From a virus: 20,692 nucleotides of DNA. The stretch is taken from positions 1 through 20,692 of the IMG/VR virus record IMGVR_UViG_3300024344_000159. One strand, 5' to 3'. The notes beneath the pieces were generated by a model. It saw only the letters and a list, made by a program, of their open reading frames with translations. It made no database searches and was not told the DNA's origin. The position numbers and the translations under genes were made by a program. This document shows, in pieces, positions 5,882 to 20,691 of the stretch (position 1 is the first letter of the stretch; each line of letters opens with the position of its first letter).

Positions 5882-6188
5882 TGAATACGACTTCAAAACC
5901 AAAGTGGGGACGGGCACAACCGCTTCACTTGAGGGGTTCGACGCGCTCGCCACCGTGGTTAGTGGTGGTGAGCTTGATTTAAGAGTGGTTGAACTAAACG
6001 AAGACCACCTATCCACCATTTGGTATCTAATTGTTCATGCGCTTCTTGATCGCGGAGAAGAAGTTAAAACCTCCAATCCTGAGTTCCCACTGACCAGCGA
6101 GAACGATTTACCTGATTTCAAATTGGAATTCGTTGAAACATCCTCGCTGCAAGAACTGCTGGAAATTTGCCGTCAAATAAATCCGTAA
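5871..6188 (+). CDS. Hypothetical small acidic protein
   Basis: ATG 5871 is preferred over an in-frame ATG at 5823 because AAGGGGA lies at the right distance before it and the longer form would sit inside the previous gene. The 105-residue protein is strongly acidic and probably alternates strands and helices. No family is recognised. The gene overlaps its left neighbour by 11 bases. Confidence 0.6.
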   Translation: MNIDEYDFKTKVGTGTTASLEGFDALATVVSGGELDLRVVELNEDHLSTIWYLIVHALLDRGEEVKTSNPEFPLTSENDLPDFKLEFVETSSLQELLEICRQINP

Positions 6189-6204
6189 AAAAGGGAGAGA
6201 AAAA

Positions 6205-6546
6205 ATGAGTAAAAAAGAACTCGGTTCAAACGCGCAAGCGTTTTGCGACCATATCTGTGCGGGCCTCGAAGCTGGTGGCCTCAACCCGAAGGACTATCCA
6301 ATGATGATTGTGACTCACGACGCAACCAAAGAGGTCGGCTTTCTCATTGGTCAGGTTCCTTTTTCCGAACTCTCCGAGGAGCACATTCTTAAAAACTCAG
6401 AGGCCATCGTCTGCTACGAAGATCGAATATCCTGGCATTTTGAAGAAAATACTGCGTGTATGTCGGTCAGCGAGAGGCAGCCGGCCAGTATGTGCGCCGT
6501 ACTGTTTTTGGGCGCAATTCTGACGGGGAAAACCGTTCCTGCGTAG
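6205..6546 (+). CDS. Hypothetical small protein
   Basis: A 113-residue protein preceded by AGGGAGA at about 6191. It contains five cysteines but no paired CxxC motif. A hydrophobic stretch near the end (MCAVLFLGAILTG, about residues 96-108) could be a buried helix or a weak membrane segment. No function is recognised. It is part of the run of small rightward genes between 4956 and 6847. Confidence 0.6.
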   Translation: MSKKELGSNAQAFCDHICAGLEAGGLNPKDYPMMIVTHDATKEVGFLIGQVPFSELSEEHILKNSEAIVCYEDRISWHFEENTACMSVSERQPASMCAVLFLGAILTGKTVPA

Positions 6547-6565
6547 ATACTCCAGGAGTGTGAAG

Positions 6566-6847
6566 ATGAGTGAAGATATAACAATAGCGACAGAGGATGA
6601 CTCTGAATCTTGGGAAGCCCACCGCATGTTAGAAGAAGCCCAGCGGCGTGAAGAAGAAGAAAAACCAGCCCCCAAAATGTCCACAGTGGAAATCTTGGAA
6701 AGGCTACGGAAGGCTCATGCGATACTGGATGTATCAGATTCTCGAATTGACCATTTAACTTGGACAATTCATGAGATGATTCAGAGACTTAAACGAAAAG
6801 ATCAGGAGTTTAGAGATGGACTCAGAGATCAACTCAAGAAAATGTAG
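6566..6847 (+). CDS. Hypothetical charged coiled-coil-like protein
   Basis: ATG 6566 follows AGGAG (6554-6558) at seven bases and is chosen over the in-frame GTG two codons upstream. The 93-residue product is highly charged, with glutamate-rich runs (EEAQRREEEE) and a C-terminal half of heptad-like helix (VEILERLRKAHAIL, then IHEMIQRLKRKDQEF). It probably forms a coiled coil. No family is recognised. It is the last rightward gene before the terminator at 6872. Confidence 0.65.
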   Translation: MSEDITIATEDDSESWEAHRMLEEAQRREEEEKPAPKMSTVEILERLRKAHAILDVSDSRIDHLTWTIHEMIQRLKRKDQEFRDGLRDQLKKM

Positions 6848-6970: not shown

Positions 6971-8706
6971 TAGTCTAAGTCCCAATCAAAATCCTCTTCT
7001 GGTATATCGCTGAACCTGCCAGAAGCGACATCGTATTGCAGTTTTTGCTGACCTCTCTTGGCGACCCAAGGAAACCGAGCTTTCCAAATATTCACAATAG
7101 GTGTGTGATCGTTGGGATCAGATGTTCTAAAAAGCGAGCAACCGACATCGGCCTTTGCCAGCCAACTAGCCGAACCAGAAATCGAGTTGCCATCGAGAGG
7201 GCGCGCTTGAGAATCGTAAGGAATTTTCGTTGGGTGAGCGCAGAAGAATGTGGACAATGAGTGGCTTCGAGAAAACTGAATAGTTCTGCTCAACATCTCT
7301 GAAATCCCTAAATGCTCATTCTCATGCTTACTCTCCAAGAAATTGTAGGGATCAATTACTAGACCCCTAGTGCCTTGTCTAAGGATCGATGAGGCAGTTC
7401 TATCTAAGATACTTTTTAAGGTTGCAACCTCACCATCTCGATTCTCCAGAAACGAGAAATGATTGTTGATCCATTTGATGGCGTCTTGCAATTCATCTTT
7501 GCTCATTCGCTCAGTCGGCCCCTCAAAAAAAGGCTTCCCAGTGTGTAAAGCTGCGAGCTTCAAGATGTGGATTTTCACGGGGTTTTCCATCGAACAGATG
7601 GCCCACCTCATGCCGTGAAGCCTTGCTGTATTTACCATGACTGCATCGATCCAGGCCGATTTACCATGACCGGGTGAACCTGTGACCACATACAAACCTG
7701 GAGCGATGGTAATAAGGTCATCAAGAGAATCGAAACCAGTGCTTAGACCCTTACCAGTTCCACCGGCCTCATATAGTTCGTGAACCTCATCGCTATAATC
7801 AGAGGCTCGGTAGACTCCAGCCAGCGGCATGGGGGTAGCGGCCTCAATAATCTCTTTTAGACGCCCTGGCCCCTCGGCACATAGCACAGCGTTGGAGTCT
7901 TTTAGTTCAGCACTGAACCGCACTTCCCAGCATTTACCTAACCCGACACGCCTTCCTATCTCTTGTTTGAGAATATCTCCTGGCCCATCGTGGTCGGTAG
8001 CTAGAATTATTTTGCTACAGGTCTCTAAGAGTTTCCTTGATTCCCAGAGGTATCCAAATTTAACTCCATCATCGTTACGCACAAATTTTGCCGGAGCACC
8101 ATTGGGGACACTCACGGCGGGTATGCCGATTGACGCAAAACTCAAAGCGTCGATTTCGCCTTCACAAATCACTAAAGGGGTCTCACTCATGTCTTCTGGC
8201 AGATTCTCTAGCCCGTAAAACGTTTTAGCAGCACCAGTTTGAGTGAATGCCTTACCCTTAATAGAACGCCACTTTACTGCGCTTGGAGCCTCTCGATCAC
8301 CATATACAAAACCCACGGCTAATTGCTCGCCTTCAGTTTTATTGAACCAGCGGGTGTCTGTCACAACCCCATATCGTTTGTAAGTCTCTTCAGAGATAGA
8401 CCTAGAGGCCATAAATTCTCGAAGTTCTCTATCGCTAGTAACCTGCGGCATTTCGATCACGTTACTGGAAGAAGAAGTTGTACTTAAAAAATCTTCTAGC
8501 AAATCAGCATCAGAAGACGAAATCTTTTTTTCTGAAAATTTGCCTGACGCATCGCAATGAAAGCAATGGTAGATTTTATGGGGGCCATCTATCTTAATGG
8601 ACAGAGTTTTTTCTTTTGATTTTTTTCTGGTATCTGAGCAGGCGGGACACAAAATTCTTGTGTCTTGATAGCAGTTCATTACTGCCAGTTCGATATCTTG
8701 AATCAT
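6970..8706 (-). CDS. Fused TOPRIM primase / DnaB-like helicase (T7 gp4-type)
   Basis: The 578-residue protein has the three parts of a phage primase-helicase. An N-terminal zinc ribbon uses C20, C23, C48 and C51. A TOPRIM primase domain has E182-G-E184 followed by TDHDGPGD with D238 and D240. A RecA-fold hexameric helicase has Walker A GSPGHGKS (343-350), Walker B LVIDPYNF with D452, and H491 in CAHPTK. It should unwind DNA at the fork and lay down RNA primers. All key residues are present. The start is backed by GAGGAG upstream on the minus strand. The gene follows RusA by 27 bases, forming a short leftward operon. It is well matched in length to the T7 gp4 class (about 566 residues). No DNA polymerase gene is in the window. 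Confidence 0.95.
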   Translation of the reverse strand: MIQDIELAVMNCYQDTRILCPACSDTRKKSKEKTLSIKIDGPHKIYHCFHCDASGKFSEKKISSSDADLLEDFLSTTSSSSNVIEMPQVTSDRELREFMASRSISEETYKRYGVVTDTRWFNKTEGEQLAVGFVYGDREAPSAVKWRSIKGKAFTQTGAAKTFYGLENLPEDMSETPLVICEGEIDALSFASIGIPAVSVPNGAPAKFVRNDDGVKFGYLWESRKLLETCSKIILATDHDGPGDILKQEIGRRVGLGKCWEVRFSAELKDSNAVLCAEGPGRLKEIIEAATPMPLAGVYRASDYSDEVHELYEAGGTGKGLSTGFDSLDDLITIAPGLYVVTGSPGHGKSAWIDAVMVNTARLHGMRWAICSMENPVKIHILKLAALHTGKPFFEGPTERMSKDELQDAIKWINNHFSFLENRDGEVATLKSILDRTASSILRQGTRGLVIDPYNFLESKHENEHLGISEMLSRTIQFSRSHSLSTFFCAHPTKIPYDSQARPLDGNSISGSASWLAKADVGCSLFRTSDPNDHTPIVNIWKARFPWVAKRGQQKLQYDVASGRFSDIPEEDFDWDLD

Positions 8707-8733
8707 CGGTTGGTCTCCTCGCTAGTGTTATTT

Positions 8734-9243
8734 CTAAGTATTTTCTTTATAATCGTCTTTAAGATTAGTTTGGTCGCTAATCCCACCACCAGTTCCTCGC
8801 TGGTTCTTTAACCCCCACCAGTCGGGAGATTGGTGGGGGTTTTTTATTTCTATCTCTCGAATAAAAATCTCCGACCTGGGATTCTCCCGATCTAGTCTCC
8901 AGAATAGATGCTGATGTTTGATTTGTCTATCGTTTTTATACAAATAGCCCTGAGCCGCATCAAATAGAATACTGCAATCTAGGTCTGGTCTTCTTGATTG
9001 ATAAAAAACAGTAATCCAAACCTCTAAATCTCCCTCTAAAAAAGGGTCTAATTTAGGACATTGTGCTTGAAAATCAGTTACATAGCTTCTGGCTTTGGCG
9101 CTTTTAATAAATCGAGGCTTACCACCAATAGTTACCAGCTTCCTGCTGTTAGCTTTACTGTATGGCTGTCCCTGGACGGTAAAGGACGTTGATCTAAACT
9201 CTTTGCATTGCAACTCTGTAAGTGTCATACTCGCTACATTCAT
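8734..9243 (-). CDS. rusA: RusA-family Holliday junction resolvase
   Basis: The family signature is plain. An early strand FTVQGQPYSK is followed by a basic stretch, then RRPDLDC...LFDAAQGYLYKNDRQI, which holds the aspartates (DLD, FDAAQG, ND) that bind metal in RusA. RusA dimers cut four-way DNA junctions and in phages help resolve recombination or replication intermediates before packaging. The product is 169 residues, longer than the usual 120 or so. The extra part is a C-terminal tail after EIEIKNP that is encoded over a strong hairpin (8811-8840). The start is uncertain: no good ribosome site precedes ATG 9243, and the in-frame ATG at 9228 is an alternative. It is divergent from the operon starting at 9275. 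Confidence 0.9.
   Translation of the reverse strand: MNVASMTLTELQCKEFRSTSFTVQGQPYSKANSRKLVTIGGKPRFIKSAKARSYVTDFQAQCPKLDPFLEGDLEVWITVFYQSRRPDLDCSILFDAAQGYLYKNDRQIKHQHLFWRLDRENPRSEIFIREIEIKNPHQSPDWWGLKNQRGTGGGISDQTNLKDDYKENT
8811..8846 (+). terminator. Terminator-like hairpin inside the 3' part of rusA, facing rightward
   Basis: ACCCCCACCA (8811-8820) and TGGTGGGGGT (8831-8840) form a perfect 10-bp stem with a 10-base loop, followed by T residues (8840-8845) on the plus strand. This is a good intrinsic terminator for rightward RNA, yet the gene there runs leftward. A second copy of the left arm core (CCCACCA, 8782-8788) could pair with the same right arm, allowing alternative structures. It may stop antisense transcription, or act as a folded element in the rusA-primase mRNA. 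Confidence 0.55.
9203..9232 (+). promoter_or_regulatory. Candidate promoter/operator, shared element copy B
   Basis: TTGCATTGCA (9203-9212), TAAGTGT (9219-9225) and TACTC (9228-9232) repeat the element found at 4892-4919, with one extra base in each gap. TACTC starts 47 bases before ATG 9275 here and 41 bases before ATG 4956 in the other copy. The site lies within the 5' end of the divergent rusA frame, so some of its sequence is also constrained by coding. It could serve both directions as a regulator-binding site. Confidence 0.5.
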
Positions 9244-9274
9244 TCAAGAAACAATGAAACTTAATGGAGGTTTT

Positions 9275-9541
9275 ATGAAAATAGAGCGCGGCATACCTCT
9301 GCCGAACAATCTAGGTGATCGGGTTTCAGTTGGGCCGTTACCTCTGAGCGAGATGAAAGTTGATGATTCTATTCGCGTTGACGCAAAGAATGCTCGTGAA
9401 TTAGAGAGAAAGTACAACGCTTGTCGCATAAGACTGCAAAGGTTTACAAAAAAACGACCACATTACAAGTTTAAGCTCGCCAAATATTCTGATTCCAAAG
9501 GCCCATATCTGAGAATATGGAGAGTCAGTCGTGCCAGCTAA
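9275..9541 (+). CDS. Small conserved phage protein (IPLP/GDS-type), copy 1
   Basis: ATG 9275 follows GGAGG (9266-9270). The open frame upstream to 9095 is antisense to rusA and is not used. The 88-residue basic protein has the pattern IERGIPLPNN, LPLSEMKVDDSIRVD, then RLQRFTKKRPHYKFK and a C-terminal YLRIWRV. This matches a small phage family I recall with IPxP, a GDSxxV segment and an ending like RVWR. It resembles a compact winged or AbrB-like DNA-binding fold, but the function is not established. A paralogue lies at 12486. It heads the recombination operon. Confidence 0.75.
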   Translation: MKIERGIPLPNNLGDRVSVGPLPLSEMKVDDSIRVDAKNARELERKYNACRIRLQRFTKKRPHYKFKLAKYSDSKGPYLRIWRVSRAS

Positions 9542-10457
9542 GGTTACAAACGATCTTGGCTTATTGGAGCCAATATATAAGGCTCTGGCGCATGACGGTT
9601 ACACATCCGGTGGTGCTGACATCACACCAACAGCATGGCTGGACTCTCCACGCATCGCACAGCTAATGAAGACTCACCGTGATGAGATCGAAGAATCGGT
9701 CTCAGACAGGGTCTTTTCTGCGCTTGGTACTGGCTTTCACAACATAATGGAAAATGCTGTTGGCGACAATGCAATCACAGAAGAACGTGTTTTCTTAGAT
9801 CATCCCAGCGGTTTAAGGGTCTCAGGAGCAATAGACCTTCAAATAGAAAAAGAGGATGGCACAACGATTCTGGTGGATTACAAGGTAACAGGAGTTTATG
9901 GAGTAATTCTCAACAAGAAAAATGGCGGCGTTAAACCAGAGTGGGAAAAACAACTCAATTCTTATCGATATCTCTTGCAACGAGCAAAAGACATTAAAGT
10001 CTCAGAACTCTACATTTTAACCATGCTTAGAGATTGGAAGGCTTCAGAAGTTGGTAAGCCTGATTATCCTGATGCGCCTATCATGCAAATTCCTGTACCG
10101 CTTTGGTCTTGGCAAGACACAGTTCAATATGTTGATGAGAGAATCTCTCTGCATCGTGAAGCCTCTTACTCCTCGCTAATCGGTGAGGAGCTTCCCCTCT
10201 GCACATCTGAAGAGATGTGGGAGCGCCCTGAGAAGTTCGCTGTCATGAAGTCTTCCACTCACAAGAGAGCAAGCAGGTTGTTGGATTCTATGGAAGAAGC
10301 CATCGAATGGGCCGCTGACCCGACAAATGGCATGGACAGCAAGCATGTTATTGAACATCGCCAGGGCAAACGAGTTCGCTGCGAGGACTGGTGCAAAGTT
10401 GCACCGTTTTGCAGTCAGTACAAAAAATATTCGGAGAAGACTAATGACGACATTTGA
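9531..10457 (+). CDS. PD-(D/E)XK exonuclease, Cas4/RecB-like, with cysteine cluster
   Basis: The start is a GTG overlapping the previous gene by 11 bases, with GGAGAG just upstream. The 308-residue protein shows the RecB-nuclease series: GTGFH with H70, VSGAID with D102, VDYK with D116 and K118, and the EKQLNSYRYLL helix with Q141 and Y145. C224 plus C284, C288 and C294 (CEDWCKVAPFC) form a four-cysteine set like the iron-sulphur clusters of Cas4 and AddB-type nucleases. With the annealing protein at 10968 it probably makes a phage recombination pair in which the nuclease resects ends and the partner anneals strands. The polarity of digestion cannot be read from sequence. Confidence 0.88.
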   Translation: MPAKVTNDLGLLEPIYKALAHDGYTSGGADITPTAWLDSPRIAQLMKTHRDEIEESVSDRVFSALGTGFHNIMENAVGDNAITEERVFLDHPSGLRVSGAIDLQIEKEDGTTILVDYKVTGVYGVILNKKNGGVKPEWEKQLNSYRYLLQRAKDIKVSELYILTMLRDWKASEVGKPDYPDAPIMQIPVPLWSWQDTVQYVDERISLHREASYSSLIGEELPLCTSEEMWERPEKFAVMKSSTHKRASRLLDSMEEAIEWAADPTNGMDSKHVIEHRQGKRVRCEDWCKVAPFCSQYKKYSEKTNDDI

Positions 10458-10713
10458 TCATGTAAATGTTGGTGGATTGGTTTTGTGCAAAAAACTTCTT
10501 CTTTTAGAAACTGCAATTAATTTCAAAAAATCTTATGTTTTTAGATGGATTAGAGAAGACATTGTTTATCGGCCTGACCGGATGTTCAAAGTTTTAAGGT
10601 GGGTAAAAGAAAAAATCTTTTTCATCCAGCAGTGGAATGCGGTGGATAGCGATGAATATAAAAATCTTAGTGGCTTTGAGTTTCAACAGGTAGAAAAAAA
10701 TGACGATATTTGA
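10444..10713 (+). CDS. Hypothetical small basic protein
   Basis: ATG 10444 has GGAGAAG about four bases upstream and overlaps the nuclease stop by 14 bases. The frame is also open further left inside the nuclease gene, which I discount. The 89-residue product is basic and rich in aromatic residues (YVFRWIREDIVYR, RWVKEKIFFIQQW), suggesting a small nucleic-acid or protein-binding fold. The family is not recognised. Its start region (ATGACGACATTTGATC) is nearly repeated at the start of the next gene. Confidence 0.65.
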   Translation: MTTFDHVNVGGLVLCKKLLLLETAINFKKSYVFRWIREDIVYRPDRMFKVLRWVKEKIFFIQQWNAVDSDEYKNLSGFEFQQVEKNDDI

Positions 10714-10957
10714 TCTCGACAAATCGATTACGGTTGAGTTTCATGGATCTGATTCAATAGAGCGAAAAATGCTGGGCTTGTGGCAACAAGAGCAGTTCAA
10801 AAATGCCAATCTTGGCATGAAGTTAGTGAACGAAAAAGTCGTCATAACGATGAACGAATACTTTATAACCGAAATCCCTTTTACTTTGTTTGACCAACTC
10901 AGTGTCAAAGAACTAACAGAAATAATCATTAAAAAAGCACAAGAACGATTCACATAG
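10700..10957 (+). CDS. Hypothetical small protein
   Basis: An 85-residue protein that begins within the previous gene, overlapping its stop by 14 bases. Its N-terminus MTIFDLD echoes MTTFDHV of that gene. The rest shows no clear similarity between the two. It probably folds as mixed strand and helix, ending in a lysine-rich helix. No motif is recognised. It lies directly before the annealing protein gene. Confidence 0.65.
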   Translation: MTIFDLDKSITVEFHGSDSIERKMLGLWQQEQFKNANLGMKLVNEKVVITMNEYFITEIPFTLFDQLSVKELTEIIIKKAQERFT

Positions 10958-10967
10958 GAGAAAAGAA

Positions 10968-11783
10968 TTGAGCGAGGAATTAACGTACCAAAAAATCTGG
11001 GACACACTCAGCAGTGTGGACTGCAACGAACACACTGATAAGAAAGGCAACTTAACCTATTTATCTTGGGCTTGGGCTTGGGGAATACTCATGGAGCATT
11101 ACCCGATGGCTACCTTTGCTTTTAATGATAACGAAACCCACGCCGATGGGAGCATGACGGTTCACTGCAACGTGAACATTGGTGAATGCCAGCGATCTAT
11201 GTGGCTTCCTGTGATGAATTACAAAAATCAGGCAATAACATCGCCTAATGCGAGAGATATCTCTGACAATAAAATGCGTTGTCTTACCAAGTCATTAGCT
11301 CTTTTTGGCCTCGGACACTACATTTACGGTGGTGAGGATACGGTGAACGCTGGCTCTAATGCACAGACTGTGAAGGCTCAGACTGTGAAGGCTCAGACTC
11401 ACCAAGCTACTGCTACCCCGAAGGCACAACCGAAACAACCATCACCTCTGGAGACACGCATGTTGAAACAAAAAGAACTTGTAGCTAGTGCTACGTCTGA
11501 AAACATTGAGGAAGTGATGGATTTTGTTTTCAAAACAATTTTTTATTTTGCGCTGCCCCCGGAAGGCACAAAAGCAAAACCAGGCGATCCAGAAACAGTC
11601 GCCGGGTGGATCGATCAGTTTACGAGCGGCAACGGCAATAAAAAGACCTTGGTCGAGCTATATAACGCTGGATTCAAGGAGGAAGTACAGGCGTTAAATA
11701 AACGTCTGGACAAAATTCGCGTTCTTGAAAAAGAACAACTTTACAAATTACTGCGAGAGCAGAAGGAGAAAAAGAATGGCTGA
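10968..11783 (+). CDS. Single-strand annealing protein, DUF1071/Sak3-like
   Basis: The start is a TTG, fixed by AGGAG at 10956-10960 seven bases upstream. The N-terminal 125 residues match the DUF1071 pattern: IWDTLSSVDCNEHTDKKGNLTYLSWAWAWG, a strand-rich middle, then MRCLTKSLALFGLGHYIYGGED. In phages this domain belongs to the Rad52/ERF-like annealing proteins (Sak3 group), which pair complementary single strands. A linker of 15-base tandem repeats at 11361-11405 encodes AQTVK units. The C-terminal third is helical and lysine/glutamate-rich. It lies between the exonuclease and an SSB-like protein, as expected for a recombination module. Confidence 0.88.
   Translation: MSEELTYQKIWDTLSSVDCNEHTDKKGNLTYLSWAWAWGILMEHYPMATFAFNDNETHADGSMTVHCNVNIGECQRSMWLPVMNYKNQAITSPNARDISDNKMRCLTKSLALFGLGHYIYGGEDTVNAGSNAQTVKAQTVKAQTHQATATPKAQPKQPSPLETRMLKQKELVASATSENIEEVMDFVFKTIFYFALPPEGTKAKPGDPETVAGWIDQFTSGNGNKKTLVELYNAGFKEEVQALNKRLDKIRVLEKEQLYKLLREQKEKKNG
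11361..11405 (+). repeat. Three 15-base tandem repeats in the annealing-protein linker
   Basis: GCACAGACTGTGAAG, GCTCAGACTGTGAAG and a third diverged copy beginning GCTCAGACT run head to tail within the reading frame. They encode AQTVK, AQTVK and AQTHQ. The period keeps the frame, so copy-number change would lengthen or shorten the linker between the two protein halves without breaking it. Confidence 0.85.
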
Positions 11784-13432: not shown

Positions 13433-13561
13433 ATGGGGAAGGGAAGCAAACAAAGACCAGCAGATAAAAAGCGTTTTGATGAAGGGTTTGACCGGATATT
13501 CGGCAAGAAGCCAACAAGCCACAAAAAATTAAAGAAAAAAGATACAAAAGCTCCAATATGA
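13433..13561 (+). CDS. Conserved phage microprotein, 42 residues (GKGSKxRP...FDRIFG)
   Basis: ATG 13433 follows GAGGAG (13416-13421), with TGA at 13559-13561. The sequence MGKGSKQRPADKKRFDEGF followed by DRIFGKK matches a tiny, highly conserved phage family I recognise by its GKGSxxRP and FDRIFG motifs. Function is unknown. The rest is a lysine-rich tail. The stop overlaps the next ATG (13558) as ATGA. Confidence 0.82.
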   Translation: MGKGSKQRPADKKRFDEGFDRIFGKKPTSHKKLKKKDTKAPI

Positions 13562-14049
13562 CTCCAATCGTTAAAAAAGCACTCGGCTGGCTTCAGAAAA
13601 AAAGCAACTTTGTACGACTCTACAACATCGACGTTTCTCAAGACCCTGTGAGACCTGAGCTAAGTCTCAGGTGGAGAACTTCATTTAATAGACAAATTTA
13701 TGGTCTAAAGCAGGGTGATGAAGTTCAAGCGGTTGTTTGTTTGGCATTTACCAACGATGTGCCTCACACAGTGCGTGAATTAGACTTGATGAGTAGAGTC
13801 AGCAAGTACGAGAAAAATGCAGACATTGCTATCGCCTATACCGTTTGGAGTAACAAAAAAGGGGTAGGTGCTGGTAAGCAAATAATGAAAGAAGTGCTTG
13901 AGTACGCAAAAGCACAACATTTGCAAAGAGTTGTCACACTAAGCCCTTTAACACCACTGGCAACTCATTTCCATATCAAATGTGGAGCAAAGTTGATTTC
14001 TCTTAATTCAACTACCCAAAACTTTGAATACAGAATTAGAAAGAATTAA
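13558..14049 (+). CDS. GNAT-like acetyltransferase of a marine-phage type
   Basis: The 163-residue protein has a GNAT-like core: a strand IAIAYTVW, then NKKGVGAGKQIMKEVLEYAK in the position of the acetyl-CoA binding loop and helix, then RVVTLSPLTPLATHFHIKCGAKLI and a closing NFEYRI. I recall close patterns in marine phage genomes. The substrate is unknown. The acceptor could be a host or phage protein. It is the last gene of the rightward operon and meets the leftward cyclase gene with only 13 bases between. Confidence 0.72.
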   Translation: MTPIVKKALGWLQKKSNFVRLYNIDVSQDPVRPELSLRWRTSFNRQIYGLKQGDEVQAVVCLAFTNDVPHTVRELDLMSRVSKYEKNADIAIAYTVWSNKKGVGAGKQIMKEVLEYAKAQHLQRVVTLSPLTPLATHFHIKCGAKLISLNSTTQNFEYRIRKN

Positions 14050-14062
14050 AAGTGTCAACCCT

Positions 14063-15901
14063 TTAGGATTTTCTTTCACTAACCCAATACTCAGCAAGAC
14101 GAGCCGCAGCTATCGCATCAGGAGACAGCGTGTAAACGCTCAGTTTCTCGCTCTTGCCCTTCACTTCGATTGAATCCAGATGCTTAACCATATCAGGAAC
14201 CTCTTGAGCCGTAGCCTCTCCGATCAATACATCATCATCGTATTTTCTAGTGCTGGACTCTAACCTGGCAGCAACATTCACCGAATCACCGATAGCGGAA
14301 TAGTCAAATCGCTTGTCTCCCCCGACATTGCCAATAACGCAGGGGCCAGTGTTGACTCCGATGCCAATGCCTAGCCTGGGCAATCCTTCTGCTTCTATTT
14401 CTTTGTTCAGTTCTTCCAATGCCACCAACATCATTGCGGCACAAGTCACTGCCCGTTCTTGATGGTCTTCACAGTCAACTGGTGCGCCCCAGAACGCCAT
14501 CACGCAATCGCCCATGTACTTGTCTATCGTTCCATCCAGCGATAGCACTACATCTGTCAATGCTGAAAGCAGTCTGTTGATAAGAGTCACTAACCCTTGG
14601 GGATCGTTGTTATTCTTGAAATGCTCTGAGATGGGGGTGAAGCCAACGATGTCGCAAAAGAGGAAACTTAATGTCTTGGTATCACCACCTAATCTCATCA
14701 GGGAAGGGTCATCCACCAACTGCTGTACTAATTTTGGGGAGACATAAGTGCCGAACATCCCTTTTATCTGTAACTTCTGTCGATATTCAGAGATCATTCT
14801 TTGACCAACCCCCACCGACCCGATGGTAAGGCTGCAAAGAACAGGCCATGCCGCATCCACCAGAATACCAAGTCTCAGGTAGCCTAAGACCGATCCTGTT
14901 GCTGTAAGAGCGCCTACAACAACAATTCCTAGTGGAACACTCAATACAGGCAAACGGCTTGCAGAGAAGGCTGTGAGCAGTCCTATAACTAATATCAGCA
15001 AGACCTCTCCACCTAAAGCCCAATCTGGGCGAACAGGTGAGGTTCCAGCCAATAAAGTCTCGAAAAGTGTCGCTTGAATTTCGTGGGGATACATCAGCCC
15101 CCGTGGAGTAGGTACTAATGGAGTTACCCCTGCTGCTGTCACACCGACAAAGATGATAGTACCTTCTGTCGGTTGCTGGGCAAACGTGGTTCCCCAATCA
15201 ACCCAGACCCTTCCTGCTGCATCAGTATTGATGGTATCGAAGTTAGGCACTCTAACCGCTTCTATGCCTGTCTCAGAGCCTCTGACTTGGTAGGAGGGGT
15301 CTCCGGCTAGGCCACGCAGGACATCCAGCCCAAGGGCCGGATACAGGCTCTCCCCAACCCTCACCACCATCGGCACACGTCTGACTAGCCCATCGACCTC
15401 TGGGGCCGTGTTAACTATGCCCGTACCGATAGCCGCCTCTTGCAACACAGCGACATTTGGCAGGATGCCAGGGTAATTGATAGCACTCTCATTGACTTGT
15501 CCTATCGTGGCTACACCTATGTGCCAGCCGTCTTGCCGATCTGTGCTGGTTGTAGCTACTGCTGAAAGAAATGTTGGTAGTTCATTCATGCTCTGAGCAA
15601 ACTCAGCATCACCACCAAATCGGTCTGTTTCGGGGAATAAAACCGAATACACAACTGCCGCTGCCCCTGAATCGAGAAGATAACGGTTAAGCTCTGCAAG
15701 TTGCTGCCGGGGCCAGGGCCACTGACCGCCCTCGGCTAATGCGGCTTCGTCTATGTTGTAAAGGGATATGTTCTGGCTTTGAACTGGCTCGCTAATCGTG
15801 AGCAGAGCATCAAAATACTTGAGTCTCAGAGTTTCTACAGGCCAAGGATCGACAACACGAAGAAGCAATAATCCAGCCAGCAAAGCAAGTAATACCTTCA
15901 A
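14063..15901 (-). CDS. CHASE2-domain class III adenylate cyclase (membrane)
   Basis: The 612-residue protein has an N-terminal membrane helix (3-17), a periplasmic CHASE2 sensor domain (about 20-295), three membrane helices (about 298-314, 320-340, 347-367) and a cytoplasmic class III cyclase domain (about 405-595). Catalytic residues are present: metal ligands D417 (FCDIVGFT) and D465 (YMGD), adenine-selecting K461, S535 at the second adenine position, and N542 and R546 in GDSVNVAARLE. It should therefore make cAMP from ATP in response to an envelope signal. It is coupled to the gene before it by an ATGA overlap and ends the leftward operon that also carries curli-type genes. Such cyclases are common in bacteria, often near FecR proteins, and unusual in a phage-like setting. 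Confidence 0.93.
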   Translation of the reverse strand: MKVLLALLAGLLLLRVVDPWPVETLRLKYFDALLTISEPVQSQNISLYNIDEAALAEGGQWPWPRQQLAELNRYLLDSGAAAVVYSVLFPETDRFGGDAEFAQSMNELPTFLSAVATTSTDRQDGWHIGVATIGQVNESAINYPGILPNVAVLQEAAIGTGIVNTAPEVDGLVRRVPMVVRVGESLYPALGLDVLRGLAGDPSYQVRGSETGIEAVRVPNFDTINTDAAGRVWVDWGTTFAQQPTEGTIIFVGVTAAGVTPLVPTPRGLMYPHEIQATLFETLLAGTSPVRPDWALGGEVLLILVIGLLTAFSASRLPVLSVPLGIVVVGALTATGSVLGYLRLGILVDAAWPVLCSLTIGSVGVGQRMISEYRQKLQIKGMFGTYVSPKLVQQLVDDPSLMRLGGDTKTLSFLFCDIVGFTPISEHFKNNNDPQGLVTLINRLLSALTDVVLSLDGTIDKYMGDCVMAFWGAPVDCEDHQERAVTCAAMMLVALEELNKEIEAEGLPRLGIGIGVNTGPCVIGNVGGDKRFDYSAIGDSVNVAARLESSTRKYDDDVLIGEATAQEVPDMVKHLDSIEVKGKSEKLSVYTLSPDAIAAARLAEYWVSERKS

Positions 15902-16164
15902 TGTACGTCATACTCCCACCATTGAATGATCGCAGACCACGGTATGACCATCGGTGTATTAATAACGTCAGGCTGTTTCTCGTAAATATCAGTCGATAAA
16001 ATTAAACATTCTTCATTGTCTTTGGATATAACATACCCCACCGTTGATCGTAGGACAGGAAGAAGTTCCATTGCTTCTTTCATCGTAACATCCTTTGTAT
16101 CAACCCAAGCATCTTCCCAAATGACCTGCGCTATTTTATGCCTTGCAATAAAGCTATCTACCAT
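15898..16164 (-). CDS. Small conserved phage-type hypothetical protein
   Basis: The 88-residue protein has KIAQVIWEDAWVDTKDVTMKEA, then TTVGYVISKDNEECLILSTD, then MVIPWSAIIQWWE. That is a pattern I associate with small phage proteins of about this size (WEDAW, VGYxxxxD, ending in IPxxxI). It is probably a small beta-rich fold of unknown role. It overlaps the gene on its right by 7 bases and is coupled to the cyclase by ATGA, tying the cyclase into a phage-type gene series. Confidence 0.7.
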   Translation of the reverse strand: MVDSFIARHKIAQVIWEDAWVDTKDVTMKEAMELLPVLRSTVGYVISKDNEECLILSTDIYEKQPDVINTPMVIPWSAIIQWWEYDVH

Positions 16165-16463
16165 TTAATTTTATCTGACCAAAAAGCGGCAGACATCTTT
16201 CCTTTCTTGATGTTCTTGCCATGCCTTGCCTTAAAAGACTTACGTCTGGCTTTCTGCTTGGCTGACTCTCCAGCTTTTGGTTTGCCAGCGGTCTTGACTC
16301 CCTGCTGGCCGAACCGAATGGTCTTAATCTTGTCGCCCTCTTTTGCCACAACAATGTGAGATTTCTTGGGGTGACTAGGAGTGCGCTTTGGCTTATTAAA
16401 ACCAGCAACACCAGCCCTGGCTAAACGCGGGTCTTTTTTGCTTTTACGCTTTTTTTCGGGCAT
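16158..16463 (-). CDS. Basic protein, DUF6321-like
   Basis: A 101-residue, strongly basic protein. Its pattern DPRLARAGVAGFNKPKRTP, SHIVVAKEGDKIKTIRFGQQG, then RKSFKARHGKNIKKGKMSAAFW fits a family I recall as DUF6321 from marine phages and metagenomes. AGAGGA precedes the start on the minus strand. It overlaps the gene on its right by 20 bases. A structural or nucleic-acid-binding role is inferred from charge only. Confidence 0.82.
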   Translation of the reverse strand: MPEKKRKSKKDPRLARAGVAGFNKPKRTPSHPKKSHIVVAKEGDKIKTIRFGQQGVKTAGKPKAGESAKQKARRKSFKARHGKNIKKGKMSAAFWSDKIKW

Positions 16464-16701
16464 TTTTAGTCCTCTTGAATGATCTGTTCTTAGCCTTGGA
16501 AGTTACCTTCAGGTTGCTGGCCTTCTTGTTTTTAGGGTTGCCATCTTTGTGATGAACGTCCTTGCCATCGCCTTTTGAGACCCTACCTTTCTTTTTCATC
16601 GAAGCACGACTAGCATTCCTAGCAGTGCGTCTTTTTTTCTGCTCTTCTTTGCCTTGATAATTATCGTATTCCTTACGGTAATTTCGTTTTTTCTTTGGCA
16701 T
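16444..16701 (-). CDS. Basic protein with partial HNH-like motif
   Basis: The 85-residue, lysine/arginine-rich product contains DVHHKDGNPKNKKASNLKV near residues 48-66. This resembles the central HH...N...N strand-helix of HNH nucleases and of marine-phage small basic proteins. No zinc cysteines and no full HNH length are present, so nuclease activity is uncertain. It starts at an ATG that shares a base with the stop of the gene on its right (TAATG). Confidence 0.7.
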   Translation of the reverse strand: MPKKKRNYRKEYDNYQGKEEQKKRRTARNASRASMKKKGRVSKGDGKDVHHKDGNPKNKKASNLKVTSKAKNRSFKRTKNARKKA

Positions 16702-16952
16702 TACTTTCCAGCCTTCCTGTATTTACGGGTTTTTTTGGCTATCTTCTTAGGTTGTTTGCTGACTTTTTTGCCCTTCTTAGTATCTTCTCGTTTTTTTCGA
16801 GTAGTTGCAGCGTACTCTTTAGAAGATAACGCTTTTATTGCAGCACTTGGTAAGTACCTTTCACCCGTCTTGGCTGAAGGCTTACCGCTTTTAGTACGCC
16901 ATTTCTGCTTTGTCCAAGACTTTAGGGACTTTTGAGATTTCTTGAGAGCCAT
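16701..16952 (-). CDS. Basic protein, DUF5872-like
   Basis: ATG 16952 is chosen over one four codons earlier because it makes a TAATG junction with the upstream stop and gives the family start MALKKSQKSLKSW. The 83-residue protein continues with KQKWRTKSGKPSAKTGERYL, then AIKALSSKEYAATTRKK and a lysine-rich end, matching the pattern I know as DUF5872. It is common in marine phages, with unknown role. About a third of residues are lysine or arginine. Confidence 0.82.
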   Translation of the reverse strand: MALKKSQKSLKSWTKQKWRTKSGKPSAKTGERYLPSAAIKALSSKEYAATTRKKREDTKKGKKVSKQPKKIAKKTRKYRKAGK

Positions 16953-17134
16953 TACTTGCGCCAACTGTTCTTAGCTTTTTTCTTAGCAGTCTTGCCCAAA
17001 TCACCGTAATGAAAAATAGGCTTGCTGGTTTTAGTGTGTGTTTTGTTGGTATGCAATGCACCATCAGACATCTTGTGATATGAACCTGTCCATTCCTTAC
17101 CGTCTTTCAGATAATGTTTTACATTCATTCCCAT
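16952..17134 (-). CDS. Small basic phage protein (MNVKHYxKDGKxxTG type)
   Basis: The 60-residue product begins MGMNVKHYLKDGKEWTGSYH, continues KMSDGALHTNKTHTKTSKPIF and ends lysine-rich. I recall this as a marine-phage pattern. GGAGG lies nine bases before ATG 17134. The in-frame ATG at 17128 would give the family-typical MNVKHY start. The first base of the frame is shared with the upstream stop codon. Unknown function. Confidence 0.75.
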   Translation of the reverse strand: MGMNVKHYLKDGKEWTGSYHKMSDGALHTNKTHTKTSKPIFHYGDLGKTAKKKAKNSWRK

Positions 17135-17325
17135 TATTTATAGCCTCCACCTTTTGCTTTGTACTCTTTAGCAAGCATTTGAGCTTTTCTAGCCGACCAT
17201 TGACCTGCTTTGCCACCTTTTGTGCCTGCTTTAATCCTATTAAAAAGATTTTTTCTCATAGTAGGCTTTGTATAGTTACCAGCCTCATTTACTCTTGACT
17301 TAGCTTTGCTTTTTTTCTTTGGCAT
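17134..17325 (-). CDS. Small basic phage protein (NYTKPxMRKxLFNRIKAG type)
   Basis: The 63-residue protein has SRVNEAGNYTKPTMRKNLF, then NRIKAGTKGGKAGQWSARKAQMLAK and YKAKGGGYK. It is a distinctive small family in marine phages by my recollection, very basic and probably nucleic-acid-binding. A G-rich stretch serves as ribosome site eight bases from the curlin stop. It is the first of five tandem basic genes after the curli genes. Confidence 0.8.
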   Translation of the reverse strand: MPKKKSKAKSRVNEAGNYTKPTMRKNLFNRIKAGTKGGKAGQWSARKAQMLAKEYKAKGGGYK

Positions 17326-17333
17326 CTTGCCCC

Positions 17334-18119
17334 CTAGTCAAACTGGTTCACAGTGACTGTTTTATTACAGCTAGAAGTACAATCTAATACTACCGTATAC
17401 GCCTTAGCACTCACCCCTGTCTGAGTCGCGTTTACAGTGTAATCCCCTTGTTTCACAAGAATATTCCCAGCGTGTGCACCGTCACCACTTTGCGTTAAGT
17501 TGACCGTGGAGTTGTCAGCAGGATTGTTGCGGAACTCAATATCCCCATCTTTCGCGCCACTACCGCTCTGGGTAATGGTCGCATCATTGTTGTTACAATT
17601 ACCACAACTCTTAACATAGGCATTATGGTTTCCAGAACCTGATTGCGTAGCAGTCCATGTGCTGTCATCCCCAAAAGCATAGAATTTGGCGTAGTGATTG
17701 CCTGTGCCTGTTTGCGTAATGGTGTACACGTTGTCATCGCCACTCATGTATATCTCACCATGCTTATCGTTACCCGTCTGAGTAACCGTCATCTCGTTTG
17801 AGTCCTGGTCAGCATCTATGTAGCCAGTATTGTCGTTGCCGGTCTGATTAATTGTATATTCATTTGCCGTGTGATTGGTGTACTGAGAATACGCCTTGGC
17901 AAGATTGTCATCACCATTCTGGTCAATATCGATGGTCGCGCTTGAACAGGTGTGTGTTGTATAGGTTCCGTTTGATAGCCCACACCATACGCGAGCGGTA
18001 TTGCCCGACCCGATTTGGTCAATGTAGATACTGGTATTTGTCCCTTTGGTATCTATTTCCACAGAGTTGTTAGCAGCAAAAGCAGAGAAGCTAATTAGAC
18101 TGATTAATATAAATCGCAT
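17334..18119 (-). CDS. Curlin-repeat amyloid subunit (CsgA/CsgB-like), ten regular repeats
   Basis: ATG 18119 follows GGGAGG and gives a clean signal peptide (MRFILISLISFSAFA); an ATG five codons earlier is not used. The mature part of the 261-residue protein is a chain of curlin repeats with the conserved glutamines at 35, 67, 92, 114, 136, 159, 184, 210, 233 and 259, spaced 22-32 and mostly 22-26 residues, in forms such as IDQIGSGN, INQTGNDN and ITQTGTGN. It ends VTVNQFD, a truncated last repeat. In curli, each repeat is one strand-turn-strand of a beta-solenoid amyloid. Cysteine pairs (46/58, 172/175, 247/251) are extra to classical CsgA. It overlaps the FecR gene by 29 bases. It should be exported to the periplasm and then through CsgG. 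Confidence 0.92.
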   Translation of the reverse strand: MRFILISLISFSAFAANNSVEIDTKGTNTSIYIDQIGSGNTARVWCGLSNGTYTTHTCSSATIDIDQNGDDNLAKAYSQYTNHTANEYTINQTGNDNTGYIDADQDSNEMTVTQTGNDKHGEIYMSGDDNVYTITQTGTGNHYAKFYAFGDDSTWTATQSGSGNHNAYVKSCGNCNNNDATITQSGSGAKDGDIEFRNNPADNSTVNLTQSGDGAHAGNILVKQGDYTVNATQTGVSAKAYTVVLDCTSSCNKTVTVNQFD

Positions 18120-19170
18120 TATCGCCTCCCCCATTTACTTCTGCCTGTATCTTCACACCAGCAGTCATAATATCAATTTTGTAAGGAGAGCCTTTGTCTA
18201 GTTCTAGGTCAATCGTATTTTCTACATTTCTTACAAAAAAGAGACTAGGCCCATCGGTAAAGGTGTACACCTGTAACTGCTGGTCAAAACCAGGAATCAC
18301 GCCTTCTATTTCGACACCATCCATCTCATAGACTTTCGCTTGCTTTCTTGACTCAGAGACTTGAACCAGCAGATCACCAAGGAAATCGGCTGCAAGCAAG
18401 TCGATGTCTAGTCTTCCCATGTCTTCTTCAAGCGCATCTTCCTCCAATTCATTGTCTTCCAACGCATCTTCTTCGAGTAAGTCTACGTCCAGAATATTAG
18501 TGGCTGTGCCGCTTTGCTCATCCACCGCCTCTTGTATCTCATCCGGCGGGTTTACGATAAGTAAATTATTCAGGAAATTCAAAGTCATGTTCTGAAGAAG
18601 AACGGGTGGCGTAGGGGGCGTTTCCGATACCGTAACCGCAGTAGCCTGCCAAGGCTCGTTCATGACAACCTCGCCAGCCATTGAAGTAACTACAATTTCT
18701 CCAGAAGACTCTCCGTTCTCATCCGGCAAAAGGATCACCATTGTTTCGCCAATCTCAGACACATGAGTAGTGAAGTCAGTACCTCGAATAGCGATAGTCG
18801 CCACAGGAGTCCTGATGTTGATGTTCTCTCGGTTAATACGACCTAAAGCTCCTGTCAGAAACCGAGCAGTACCGGAGGCCATATTGAGCGCCAAGCGACT
18901 TCGAGAAGGGTCAGGGTCAAAAACAAAGTCATCAATAACGATGCTGGAACGCTCAGTCAGGCTTACAGTGCTGTCATCCAGGAATGTAATGGATAACCTG
19001 CCGTTACCAGTTCTGACATTATCCATGCTGGCTATGCCAAGCTGTAACGCAGCAACTAAGGAATCATCAGAGTCCTCACGAAGCACCTCACCGATACCGC
19101 GTAGCTCAGAAATAGATCCAACTTGAGCGTTAGCTACAATCGGCAGGAATATCAGCAGCCACTTACACAT
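18091..19170 (-). CDS. Secreted FecR-domain protein with curlin-like C-terminal tail
   Basis: A signal peptide (residues 1-15) leads a FecR domain (about 17-167) with VGSISELRGIGEVLR, a GNGRLSITFLDDSTVSL strand pair and the signature TPVATIAIRGTDF (121-133). An acidic repeat region (227-256, LEEDALE units) and a second strand-rich domain follow. The last residues, GGGDNAIYINQSN, look like half a curlin repeat. FecR domains in the envelope act in signal relay or bind surface polymers. The ATG overlaps the upstream curlin gene by 19 bases with no clear ribosome site, so coupling is likely. Proteins of this kind often neighbour CHASE2 cyclases, and one lies downstream in the same operon. Confidence 0.88.
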   Translation of the reverse strand: MCKWLLIFLPIVANAQVGSISELRGIGEVLREDSDDSLVAALQLGIASMDNVRTGNGRLSITFLDDSTVSLTERSSIVIDDFVFDPDPSRSRLALNMASGTARFLTGALGRINRENINIRTPVATIAIRGTDFTTHVSEIGETMVILLPDENGESSGEIVVTSMAGEVVMNEPWQATAVTVSETPPTPPVLLQNMTLNFLNNLLIVNPPDEIQEAVDEQSGTATNILDVDLLEEDALEDNELEEDALEEDMGRLDIDLLAADFLGDLLVQVSESRKQAKVYEMDGVEIEGVIPGFDQQLQVYTFTDGPSLFFVRNVENTIDLELDKGSPYKIDIMTAGVKIQAEVNGGGDNAIYINQSN

Positions 19171-19865
19171 TGATCAATATCAATCACGCCGCCAGTTGTC
19201 ACAGCTATTATGTCAACAATCCCGCTGGTTGATCCAGATGCATGGGTCTGGTCTATGTCGATATTGTTGGTTGAACCTGTAATGTCTGCCGTGATGCTAC
19301 TTGATGCATTTCCGGTCTGAGTTGTATCTATATCGTTACTTGAGCCGTCCACATCCCAGTTATTTACACCACTCACCACCTCACTTACGATGTTCAGATT
19401 GTTGCTCGTTCCGGTCACCACGATGTCTGTATTGCCGCTGGTTGCCGTCGCTGCTGCGCCCTGCGTATAGCTCAATACATTTGAATCGCCAGTAGCAGCA
19501 AAGTCAAAATCGGTAGATTGGACATCACCGGACGCACCCAAGGCTAGTGTCTGCGTATTGGAATCACCTGTGCTTCTCAAAGTGAAGCTGGTTGAGTTAG
19601 CCTGTGCCGCAGTCATCGCAATGGTGTTGCTGTCACCTATCTGATCTATGTCAGCCGTAAGCGAAGTACCTGTAAGAGAGACCCTTGCGCTGGTGGTTCC
19701 AACCACGTTGGAGTTGCCTATCTGGTCGATATTAAGGGTCAGGGCTGTCGAGCCGCCAGATTGAGTCAGATATATGCTGTTGTTGGCAGCATTAGCTGAA
19801 ATGAAATAGGCAAGTGAATACAAAAGAAACAAGTAAACAAAGCAGCTTTTAATCAGTAATCTCAT
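19152..19865 (-). CDS. Degenerate curlin-repeat protein
   Basis: ATG 19865 is supported by AAGGAG seven bases upstream and by the signal peptide it creates (residues 1-26, cut near SANA). The longer frame to 20087 is inside csgG. The 237-residue product has repeats every 21-27 residues that keep the turn TGDSN/IGNSN but often lack the glutamine: LNIDQIGNSN (44), ADIDQIGDSN (71), FTLRSTGDSN (94), FDFAATGDSN (120), DIVVTGTSN (147), WDVDGSSN (170), ITADITGSTN (191). The end is IDIDQCVSGC with two cysteines. It may be a minor, nucleating or cap subunit beside the more regular protein at 17334. It overlaps csgG by 17 bases. Confidence 0.85.
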   Translation of the reverse strand: MRLLIKSCFVYLFLLYSLAYFISANAANNSIYLTQSGGSTALTLNIDQIGNSNVVGTTSARVSLTGTSLTADIDQIGDSNTIAMTAAQANSTSFTLRSTGDSNTQTLALGASGDVQSTDFDFAATGDSNVLSYTQGAAATATSGNTDIVVTGTSNNLNIVSEVVSGVNNWDVDGSSNDIDTTQTGNASSSITADITGSTNNIDIDQTHASGSTSGIVDIIAVTTGGVIDIDQCVSGC

Positions 19866-20691
19866 TCTGAACTCCTTGTGGGGTGTAGTCCCACATATCC
19901 TGCTGAATGCCTTGATGCACCAGTTCCAGAACTGCCGCTTCAATGGCACTTCTAACTGCATAGGTCGCAGTCTCGTTTCTGGCGGCTCCTGCTTCAATCT
20001 CCACAAGTTCAGTACCGCCAGTTTCTGTAAATATAAAGGTATCAAAATTAGTCGCTGTTGAATATATCTGCTTGCTGGTAATGACATTCAACAACACCTG
20101 TCCCGTTTGCACGAGAATGGCCCTCAGAGCCACTGTAACCTCATCCACTCGGTACTGTGCGCTTGCACCTATACCCAAATAACGCGCCCCTGCGCCGCCA
20201 CTCAGAAGGTTTGTGTCGTAACCAATGATGCCACCAGCCAAGATCAATCCAGAAAATAGCAGAGGCTCTAACTGATTAGCGCCCTCTCCATCATAATTAT
20301 TTCGTGTTGAAATAATAAGCTGTCGTTCTCTGGTCAAAACATCAAGATTTGCGCGTTCTGCAACGAGAAACCACTTACCATTACCCGCTGCCATTAGTGC
20401 ATCTATAAGGAAGCTGTCTGCCCCCTGGGTTACGGCAGTGCTGAATAAAGCCATGTTATCGGCTGTAGCTCTTTGCCCTGTTTGATCTGCAAAAGAATAA
20501 ACGCTCACGACAGCTTTTTGACGTGGCATAGCAAGGTTTTGCAACTCAGTAAGGGTTGGTCTCTCTATCCGTGGCTCAGGTGAGCAATAATTACTTAAAG
20601 TTCCACAGCGATAGGGATCAACACTCACACATCCTGAGACTGTGAGTACCAAAGCGCATAAGGCTAAAGCGCGCACTCGTCTGTACTGCAA
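19849..20691 (-). CDS. csgG: CsgG-like curli secretion lipoprotein (start uncertain at right edge)
   Basis: The protein has a lipoprotein signal (LALCALVLTVSGC, lipobox VSGC), then VVSVYSFADQTGQ, FSTAVTQGADSFLIDALM, KWFLVAERANLDVLTRERQLI, LILAGGIIGYDTNLLSGGAGA, RYLGIGASAQYRVDEVTVALR and QTGQVLLNVITSKQI. It follows E. coli CsgG (277 residues) along its whole length. CsgG forms a nine-subunit outer-membrane channel that secretes curlin. The first possible start here is a TTG two bases from the window edge (280 residues). A GTG at 20676 would place the lipid cysteine at residue 16, as in E. coli. The gene may also begin outside the window. It is the first visible gene of the leftward operon. Confidence 0.93.
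   Translation of the reverse strand: MQYRRVRALALCALVLTVSGCVSVDPYRCGTLSNYCSPEPRIERPTLTELQNLAMPRQKAVVSVYSFADQTGQRATADNMALFSTAVTQGADSFLIDALMAAGNGKWFLVAERANLDVLTRERQLIISTRNNYDGEGANQLEPLLFSGLILAGGIIGYDTNLLSGGAGARYLGIGASAQYRVDEVTVALRAILVQTGQVLLNVITSKQIYSTATNFDTFIFTETGGTELVEIEAGAARNETATYAVRSAIEAAVLELVHQGIQQDMWDYTPQGVQNEITD

Follow-up and report, generated by a model that had tools for sequence, protein, structure and literature searches.

We have analysed a viral DNA stretch of 20.7 kb (IMG/VR record IMGVR_UViG_3300024344_000159; the whole stretch, positions 1-20,692, is referred to below as the window), and observed that a CHASE2-containing class III adenylate cyclase encoded there closes a curli (type VIII secretion) gene cassette. 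We assign it this place because genes for CsgG, a FecR-domain protein and 2 curlin-repeat proteins precede it on the same strand, and CsgF is encoded in related records. The wiring seen in the cassette suggests how the cyclase may be switched. We propose, as a reading that we give about an even chance of being correct, that it serves in a phage-encoded relay from the envelope to cyclic AMP (cAMP), which would read the state of curli/FecR assembly. Phage cassettes that combine curli, FecR and cyclase genes are already known from other ocean phages, and the window adds another; what is added here is the pairing of FecR with CHASE2 cyclases in bacteria, a curlin-like tail on the phage FecR protein, a group of phage cyclases that kept their sensor, and the lysis genes at the cassette flanks.

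The cyclase gene (14063-15901, minus strand, as are all cassette features given below) is an open reading frame (ORF) of 612 amino acids (aa) with a TTG start, and matches PHROG 35576 (E 3.3e-181). Two Pfam domains exceed their curated cut-offs within this single protein: the CHASE2 sensor (PF05226, residues 9-310, positions 14972-15877, E 3.5e-36, 125.5 bits against a cut-off of 26.3) and the class III catalytic domain (PF00211, Guanylate_cyc, residues 409-592, positions 14126-14677, E 6.2e-21, 75.3 bits against 21.9). Alignment with relatives identified D417, K461, D465, S535, N542 and R546, so that the metal Asp pair, the substrate Lys and the transition-state Asn and Arg are all present; we take D417 and D465 to bind metal, K461 to bind substrate, N542 and R546 to act in the transition state, and S535 to be of the adenylate type (class IIIb). 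By hydropathy, one hydrophobic segment lies at the N-terminus and several more cluster around residues 295-344, in keeping with the usual topology of CHASE2 proteins. The sensor and the hydrophobic segments are thus present, the 5 catalytic residues are where the original prediction had put them, and the enzyme is predicted from its sequence to make cAMP.

Our alignment of phage cyclases contained 50 rows, one for the window and 49 for other ORFs, a number of which are fragments or almost identical to one another. The catalytic sites are covered in 47 rows. D417, D465 and R546 were present in all 47 rows, N542 in 46 and K461 in 45. The ratio of nonsynonymous to synonymous substitution rates (dN/dS) was 0.062-0.093 against 5 relatives; these values are rough, since dS was 1.2-1.6 in 3 of the 5 comparisons, and 2 further comparisons, with L013 and L015, were saturated and excluded. 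By this measure the cyclase is judged to be under purifying selection. Domains, catalytic-site conservation and dN/dS together support the presence, on a phage, of an intact class III cyclase that is bound to the membrane, maintained by selection and equipped with a sensor outside the cytoplasm. They also argue against the idea that the cassette was acquired whole, the cyclase being useless cargo to the phage. Some phage curli cassettes do lack a cyclase (PMC9599517), as that idea would allow; with dN/dS at 0.06-0.09 and the catalytic residues conserved, we consider it highly improbable.

The original prediction treated the cyclase without the curli cassette, which extends on the same strand from the cyclase to position 20691 and in which Pfam recognised CsgG, FecR and the 2 curlin-repeat proteins. 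The order of transcription is CsgF (outside the window), CsgG, curlin, FecR, curlin, small ORFs, an 88-aa ORF and the cyclase; "first" and "second" curlin refer to this order. CsgG, the outer-membrane curli pore, runs up to the window edge (19849-20691; E 3.9e-47; a lipobox, VSGC, was noted by eye). The first curlin-repeat protein (19152-19880; longest ORF from 20087), which has a signal-like N-terminus, was assigned with the help of its relatives, its Curlin_rpt match (E 0.0012, 19.1 bits) being under the cut-off of 20.7. The second (17334-18119), which is CsgA/B-like, matched Curlin_rpt at E 1.8e-14 and has an N-terminus that looks signal-like by eye; its start was picked by comparison, the longest ORF starting at 18134, and it scored 45.8 bits with the NCBIfam CsgA model, under the cut-off of 160. 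No CsgF was found in the window, which ends inside the CsgG region; CsgF is present in 9 of 10 related viral records, and lies upstream of CsgG wherever the locus layout was examined. The order CsgF-CsgG-curlin-FecR-curlin-cyclase is also that of loci L033, L039, L040, L049 and L050, whose cyclases are only 34-41% identical to that of the window (the second curlin of L033, L039 and L040 was recognised by its strand motif alone).

The FecR-domain protein (18091-19170, 359 aa; Pfam FecR E 4.1e-11; N-terminus signal-like by eye) ends in a curlin-like strand, IYINQ (residues 353-357, positions 18100-18114), followed by 2 residues. This strand is the sole match to [ILV]x[ILV]xQ in the 359 residues, and it resembles the strands of both curlins. 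We observed [ILV]x[ILV]xQ within the last 9 residues of 21/21 phage FecR tails (the window and 20 loci, some near-identical), compared with 6/604 control ORFs of at least 150 aa taken from bacterial regions and 6 viral stretches. The pattern N-x5-Q fell within the last 10 residues of 19 of the 21 tails. Among the 17 bacterial FecR partners described below, a curlin-like tail occurred once. In an alignment of 13 FecR sequences, Q357 and G294 were the only invariant positions past residue 266, and Q357 was invariant in our other alignments as well. The FecR regulator of ferric-citrate transport has a cytoplasmic anti-sigma part and a transmembrane helix ahead of its FecR domain. We considered this role for the window protein and rejected it: no anti-sigma domain was found, PF04773 was the sole Pfam family above cut-off, and no hydrophobic segment exceeded the threshold. 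The phage protein looks, from these sequence features, to be associated with the fibre and not to be an anti-sigma regulator. In the literature on FecR with curlin or with CHASE2, as represented by titles, abstracts and passages, supplements aside, we found no report of such a tail.

A second line of evidence comes from bacteria. We collected 40 higher-scoring bacterial relatives of the cyclase (32 alphaproteobacterial and 8 gammaproteobacterial, hand-picked, several near contig ends being passed over), each with both flanks to a length of at most 7 kb, or less at contig ends, and searched these regions with a profile of the phage FecR proteins. A FecR-domain ORF was found near 16/40 cyclases and within 500 bp of 11, one of the 11 overlapping an over-extended cyclase frame. 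By comparison, FecR was found in 0/20 arbitrary 16-kb regions from 10 of the same genomes, and a CsgG profile matched in 0/40 of the cyclase neighbourhoods. FecR and the CHASE2 cyclase therefore look like an older bacterial pair, to judge from gene neighbourhoods. All 9 partner proteins that were scanned contain a FecR domain; 2 have cadherin- and Ig-like repeats, and one of these 2 also has NIDO and an RTX match just under cut-off. With short flanks of about 1-1.5 kb, FecR-like ORFs were seen near few cyclases (L080, L101, L105 and L110, with L061 appearing when longer flanks were used). A Pfam tally of ORFs flanking the 40 cyclases gave FecR 5, HD 6, GAF 6 and MlaC 4; this tally covers the 133 shortest of the 144 ORFs that were collected with an upper limit of 1200 aa, and several giant FecR proteins hence fall outside it. 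The reading we draw is that the phage cassette unites a curli exporter with a pre-existing FecR-CHASE2 sensing pair.

Two bacterial systems offer precedents for parts of this arrangement. In Sinorhizobium meliloti the cyclases CyaD1, CyaD2 and CyaK, which likewise join CHASE2 to a cyclase domain, receive a signal through an outer-membrane barrel, the receptor NsrA, and cAMP is raised as a result (PMC13001267, PMC7529298); CyaD1 deleted for CHASE2 produces cAMP constitutively (PMC5498481). That system differs from ours in being bacterial and in having a known effector, Clr, and no link to curli appears in the portions of PMC13001267 and PMC7529298 used here. In the Burkholderia biofilm operon (BiofilmReg), the gene for an exported LysM-FecR protein adjoins that for a CHASE2 sensor and there is a biofilm phenotype, although the output there is a histidine kinase instead of a cyclase, and the system is again bacterial (PMC5192318).

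Side observations from the bacterial neighbourhoods include 2 giant FecR-domain proteins, one of 1450 aa (L139:9057-13409) and one of 1722 aa (L140:9443-14611), which contain cadherin/Ig-type repeats and directly adjoin CHASE2 cyclases. In Pseudidiomarina (L061:9923-15874 onward), a CHASE2 cyclase is followed by ORFs that by eye resemble GAF-HD and beta-lactamase-fold proteins, and then by a giant FecR-domain ORF.

Seven phage contigs from 7 records, L017-L023, have kept the sensor while their cyclase half differs. Identity to the window, measured for L017, L018 and L023, was 78-79% in the CHASE2 part and 43-44% in the cyclase part, with the step near residues 276-301; for the comparison row L015 the 2 halves were 77% and 78% identical. 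Among other distant phage rows the cyclase half was the better conserved in 5/6, the values for Melnitz being 37% and 38%. D417, K461, D465, N542 and R546 were kept in all 7 divergent cyclases, an example of which is the gene at L017:4099-5880. The simplest account of these identities is that the output domain was exchanged, fast divergence of the cyclase half being the alternative. Since a cyclase would then have been replaced by a cyclase, the cyclic-nucleotide output seems to matter. The divergent half is about equally close to L033 (47% identity) and to a protein from Alphaproteobacteria (46%). A bacterial donor was considered and set aside: the free tree search for the cyclase half splits off the 7 and puts them outside the phage clade, but beside 3 long-branch neighbours, and the approximately unbiased (AU) test does not reject a single phage clade (p-AU 0.68).

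Lysis genes flank several of the cassettes, which suggests late expression of the cassette in some lineages. In 9/9 loci of the window lineage that reach upstream of CsgF (L002, L004, L005, L008, L013-L015, L027 and L041), a small protein of unknown family, with a hydrophobic stretch seen by eye, is encoded there, and 5 of these loci have a spanin-like pair. An endolysin gene lies within about 0.5 kb after the cyclase in 7/7 of L017-L023 (by family scan in L017 and L018, by likeness to L017 in the rest), and weak spanin homologues follow the cyclase in L040, L045 and L048. One of the 2 main rivals of the relay draws on these neighbours, and holds that the cassette belongs to the lysis programme, its pore being combined with a cAMP switch or an energy sensor by which lysis would be held back or set off; lysis control has been proposed for the CsgGF of phage Melnitz (PMC9004378). 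However, the endolysin and the spanins each have a complete gene of their own, the adjacency of which may mean late expression only, the curlin repeats and the FecR tail indicate fibre building, and the annotation of HTVC008M shows no lysis gene next to its cassette. We regard a role in lysis timing as rather unlikely.

We also searched for partners through which cAMP might act. A cyclic nucleotide-binding domain (PF00027) was found in 0/13 phage records, some of them fragments, and so the effector, if there is any, is probably in the host. This search bears on the suggestion that the enzyme is a Pycsar-like cyclase that interferes with, or forms, a cyclic-nucleotide defence. PADLOC PycC models do match, with a best score of 91.7 bits. 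The match is confined to the cyclase domain, a CHASE2 sensor is present, and Pycsar pairs the PycC cyclase with a cyclic nucleotide-binding effector, a domain that was not found in the 13 phage records. We therefore rejected membership of the window system in Pycsar, and consider defence or counter-defence the least probable of the explanations discussed here.

The relay that we favour would work as follows. The cassette, probably expressed late, would build a curli export system in the envelope of the infected cell, CsgG with CsgF forming the outer-membrane pore; the 2 curlin-repeat proteins and the FecR protein with its curlin-like strand would be secreted or attached to the fibre. The periplasmic CHASE2 domain would sense the state of curli assembly, with the FecR protein as the likeliest intermediary, and the inner-membrane cyclase would set the intracellular cAMP level, which would act on host cAMP-binding regulators. 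Within this scheme we infer the ligand (FecR or the curlins), the sign of the signal, the cAMP product, the late timing and the host effector. A stricter form, in which the curlin-tailed FecR protein sits in or caps a phage amyloid fibre and CHASE2 reads whether it is present in the periplasm or absent from it, so that fibre export becomes a cAMP signal and the whole is a self-contained envelope checkpoint, is put forward tentatively, as appreciably less probable than the relay in general.

The other main rival is that the cyclase reprogrammes the host independently of curli, a general envelope signal raising host cAMP and so steering a CRP-type regulon, which was the view of the original prediction. 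The cyclase and its sensor are intact, as that view requires, and the S. meliloti CHASE2 cyclases work through Clr, a CRP-family protein (PMC13001267). Yet the linkage to CsgG, FecR and curlin across distant phages would lack explanation. The proposed steering of enteric CRP and host curli genes, moreover, found no support: the enteric CRP-curli link is inapplicable because the curli genes here belong to the phage and sit in the cassette that also holds the cyclase. We judge curli-independent reprogramming to have about the same low probability as lysis timing.

Several observations weigh against the relay. The phage loci were collected by likeness to the window cyclase, a way of sampling that favours similar cassettes. 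In most phages the coding sequence of the FecR tail and the beginning of the second curlin gene share 29 nucleotides (nt) or more, read in different frames, and this overlap could shape the tail; L033 and L039, in which the tail is present with no overlap, and L040, with an overlap of 4 nt, are all that opposes such an origin. The model of the FecR fold, at a predicted local distance difference test score (pLDDT) of 39, was of no use. In 24/40 bacterial neighbourhoods there was no FecR match, and in 13/17 of the bacterial pairs FecR and the cyclase are encoded on opposite strands, which makes most of them neighbours and not operons. To these we add that no cyclic nucleotide-binding protein was found in the 13 phage records, that K461 is replaced by T in L008 and L016 and N542 by S in Melnitz, and that a single phage clade is not rejected for the divergent cyclase half of L017-L023.

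If the cyclase does read FecR or the fibre, the question of why curli cassettes carry a cyclase becomes one that can be tested in Escherichia coli, and curli cassettes of phages occur widely in the ocean (PMC9599517). The ligands of CHASE2 were termed unknown in 2016 (PMC5192318), and later work on the S. meliloti cyclases has reported one signal and a receptor in the outer membrane (PMC13001267, PMC7529298); the FecR protein would be a concrete candidate partner for a much wider set. If the checkpoint form holds, FecR-CHASE2 would be a general and little-recognised sensor of bacterial surface structures, with adhesins in the place of curli, and the 7 contigs L017-L023 would be a natural experiment in which the cyclic-nucleotide output is under selection.

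As to its origin, the window is most likely part of the genome of a marine podophage that resembles HTVC023P and has no close relative among the isolates. This assignment follows from the closest long relative, G001 (locus L002), whose cyclase is 95-96% identical; G001 encodes portal, ejection and internal-virion families, and its terminase is 53-58% identical to those of the podophages HTVC023P, HTVC027P and 023Pt_psg01, a range that becomes 53-59% when phage DSL-LC04 is included. HTVC027P and HTVC023P are Pelagibacter phages; with DSL-LC04, the record of which names Gammaproteobacteria, they are the nearest isolates by terminase. The primase-helicase of the window itself is 33% identical to the best-ranked phage records. 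Between the window and L002 the cyclase dS is 0.34, whereas saturation is reached for CsgG, FecR and the second curlin, which indicates that the cassettes are mosaics.

It had been claimed that no well-studied phage carries such a cyclase. A tblastn search of 50,697 phage records gave 9 matched records, 6 of which cover at least 80% of the query: HTVC008M (2 records, 38.9%) and 4 Melnitz genomes (35.4%). The short matches, in 2 records of Acinetobacter phages and in one phage record that lacks annotation, involve the cyclase domain only. The claim of novelty fails, since HTVC008M and Melnitz are isolates with annotated cyclases, and curli-FecR-adenylate cyclase cassettes were described in PMC9599517 from HTVC023P-type podophages and pelagimyophages. 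That paper considers the cassette probably alphaproteobacterial in origin and transferred between phage families, finds viral curli proteins at every one of the 65 stations that it analysed, sees these proteins and FecR expressed in metatranscriptomes, and states that known Pelagibacter have no curli system; an earlier account of pelagiphage curli cassettes proposed sibling capture (PMC7029224). Neither CHASE2 nor PF05226 appears in the main text of PMC9599517, and no paper on a phage CHASE2 adenylate cyclase was found, judging by titles.

The window cassette agrees with those of PMC9599517 in its gene order (CsgF, CsgG, curlin, FecR, second curlin, cyclase), in its HTVC023P-like podophage background (by the G001 terminase) and in having a cyclase of a viral group near Alphaproteobacteria. 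It differs in the 88-aa ORF that overlaps the cyclase and in the inserted Lys-rich ORFs. In the podovirus form, moreover, one or two histidine kinases always precede the cassette (PMC9599517), whereas we found none here: HATPase_c (PF02518) was matched in 0/15 records, several of them fragmentary, and the window itself stops at CsgG. The HTVC008M and Melnitz cyclases are homologous over 94% of the query and likewise follow CsgF-CsgG-curlin-FecR-curlin, but these phages have genomes of 141-147 kb, are placed in Kyanoviridae, and have no 88-aa ORF ahead of the cyclase. In Melnitz (L050, MZ577097.1; cyclase at 8932-10983), N542 is replaced by S and the residue that corresponds to S535 is D, and activity may be altered. 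The same record annotates 2 curlin-repeat proteins around FecR (6122-6841 and 7900-8916); csgA and csgB are said to be lacking in PMC9004378.

A phylogenetic tree of 34 phage cyclases longer than 520 aa and 62 bacterial rows (31 alphaproteobacterial and 31 gammaproteobacterial, picked by similarity), rooted at the midpoint, put all the phage proteins on one side of a branch with a Shimodaira-Hasegawa approximate likelihood-ratio (SH-aLRT) support of 100, joined to alphaproteobacterial rows. Phage and alphaproteobacterial rows together were separate from 30/31 gammaproteobacterial rows, and the best bacterial scores were 340.8 bits among 385 alphaproteobacterial genomes and 273.9 bits among 369 gammaproteobacterial genomes. 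Phage-borne CHASE2 cyclases thus do cluster, as a tree had been suggested to decide; the rows were selected by likeness to the window, and phage cyclases of other kinds may therefore exist.

At its 5' end the cyclase gene overlaps the small ORF of 88 aa (15898-16164). The original prediction had read this junction as ATGA; a start-stop overlap is indeed present, the sequence being TTGA (15898-15901), in which the TTG start of the cyclase lies on the TGA stop of the 88-aa ORF. The cyclase frame opens past a stop, and TTG at 15901 is its earliest start codon. We observed the junction CA-TTG-A in 14/14 other loci where the 88-aa ORF was found along with the start of the cyclase (L002, L004-L008, L011, L017-L022 and L041). 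An assembly chimera at 15898, which had been named as a possible objection, is contradicted by the recurrence of the cyclase beside the 88-aa ORF or a curlin in contigs of many different records. The 88-aa ORF is conserved in relatives and gave a beta-rich model (pLDDT 77); it has no Pfam match, and the model has no match in PDB at E<=0.001. A Sm/SH3-barrel assignment was rejected, the structural resemblance being weak, with every E above 0.2.

Between the second curlin and the cyclase lies a variable insert of 5 small Lys-rich ORFs (16158-17325), one of them HNH_3-like, which among relatives is present, partial or absent. The 101-aa Lys-rich ORF has relatives of 68-79% identity in L029, L046 and L047, where they lie downstream of cyclases that are only 41-44% identical. 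Searches for RNA signals gave no riboswitch or other Rfam RNA in the window at the gathering score, and promoter-like sites numbered 3, against a mean of 11.4 in shuffled sequence, with 6 terminator-like sites against 6.7, so that neither scan is informative. In the L017-L023 lineage, a GroES-like co-chaperonin gene (L017:6641-7069) lies between the endolysin gene and phrog_28737, a phage gene of unknown function. Finally, a small acetyltransferase-like ORF at 13558-14049 of the window, which has a weak match to the C-terminal part of malonyl-CoA decarboxylase, is convergent with the cyclase gene.

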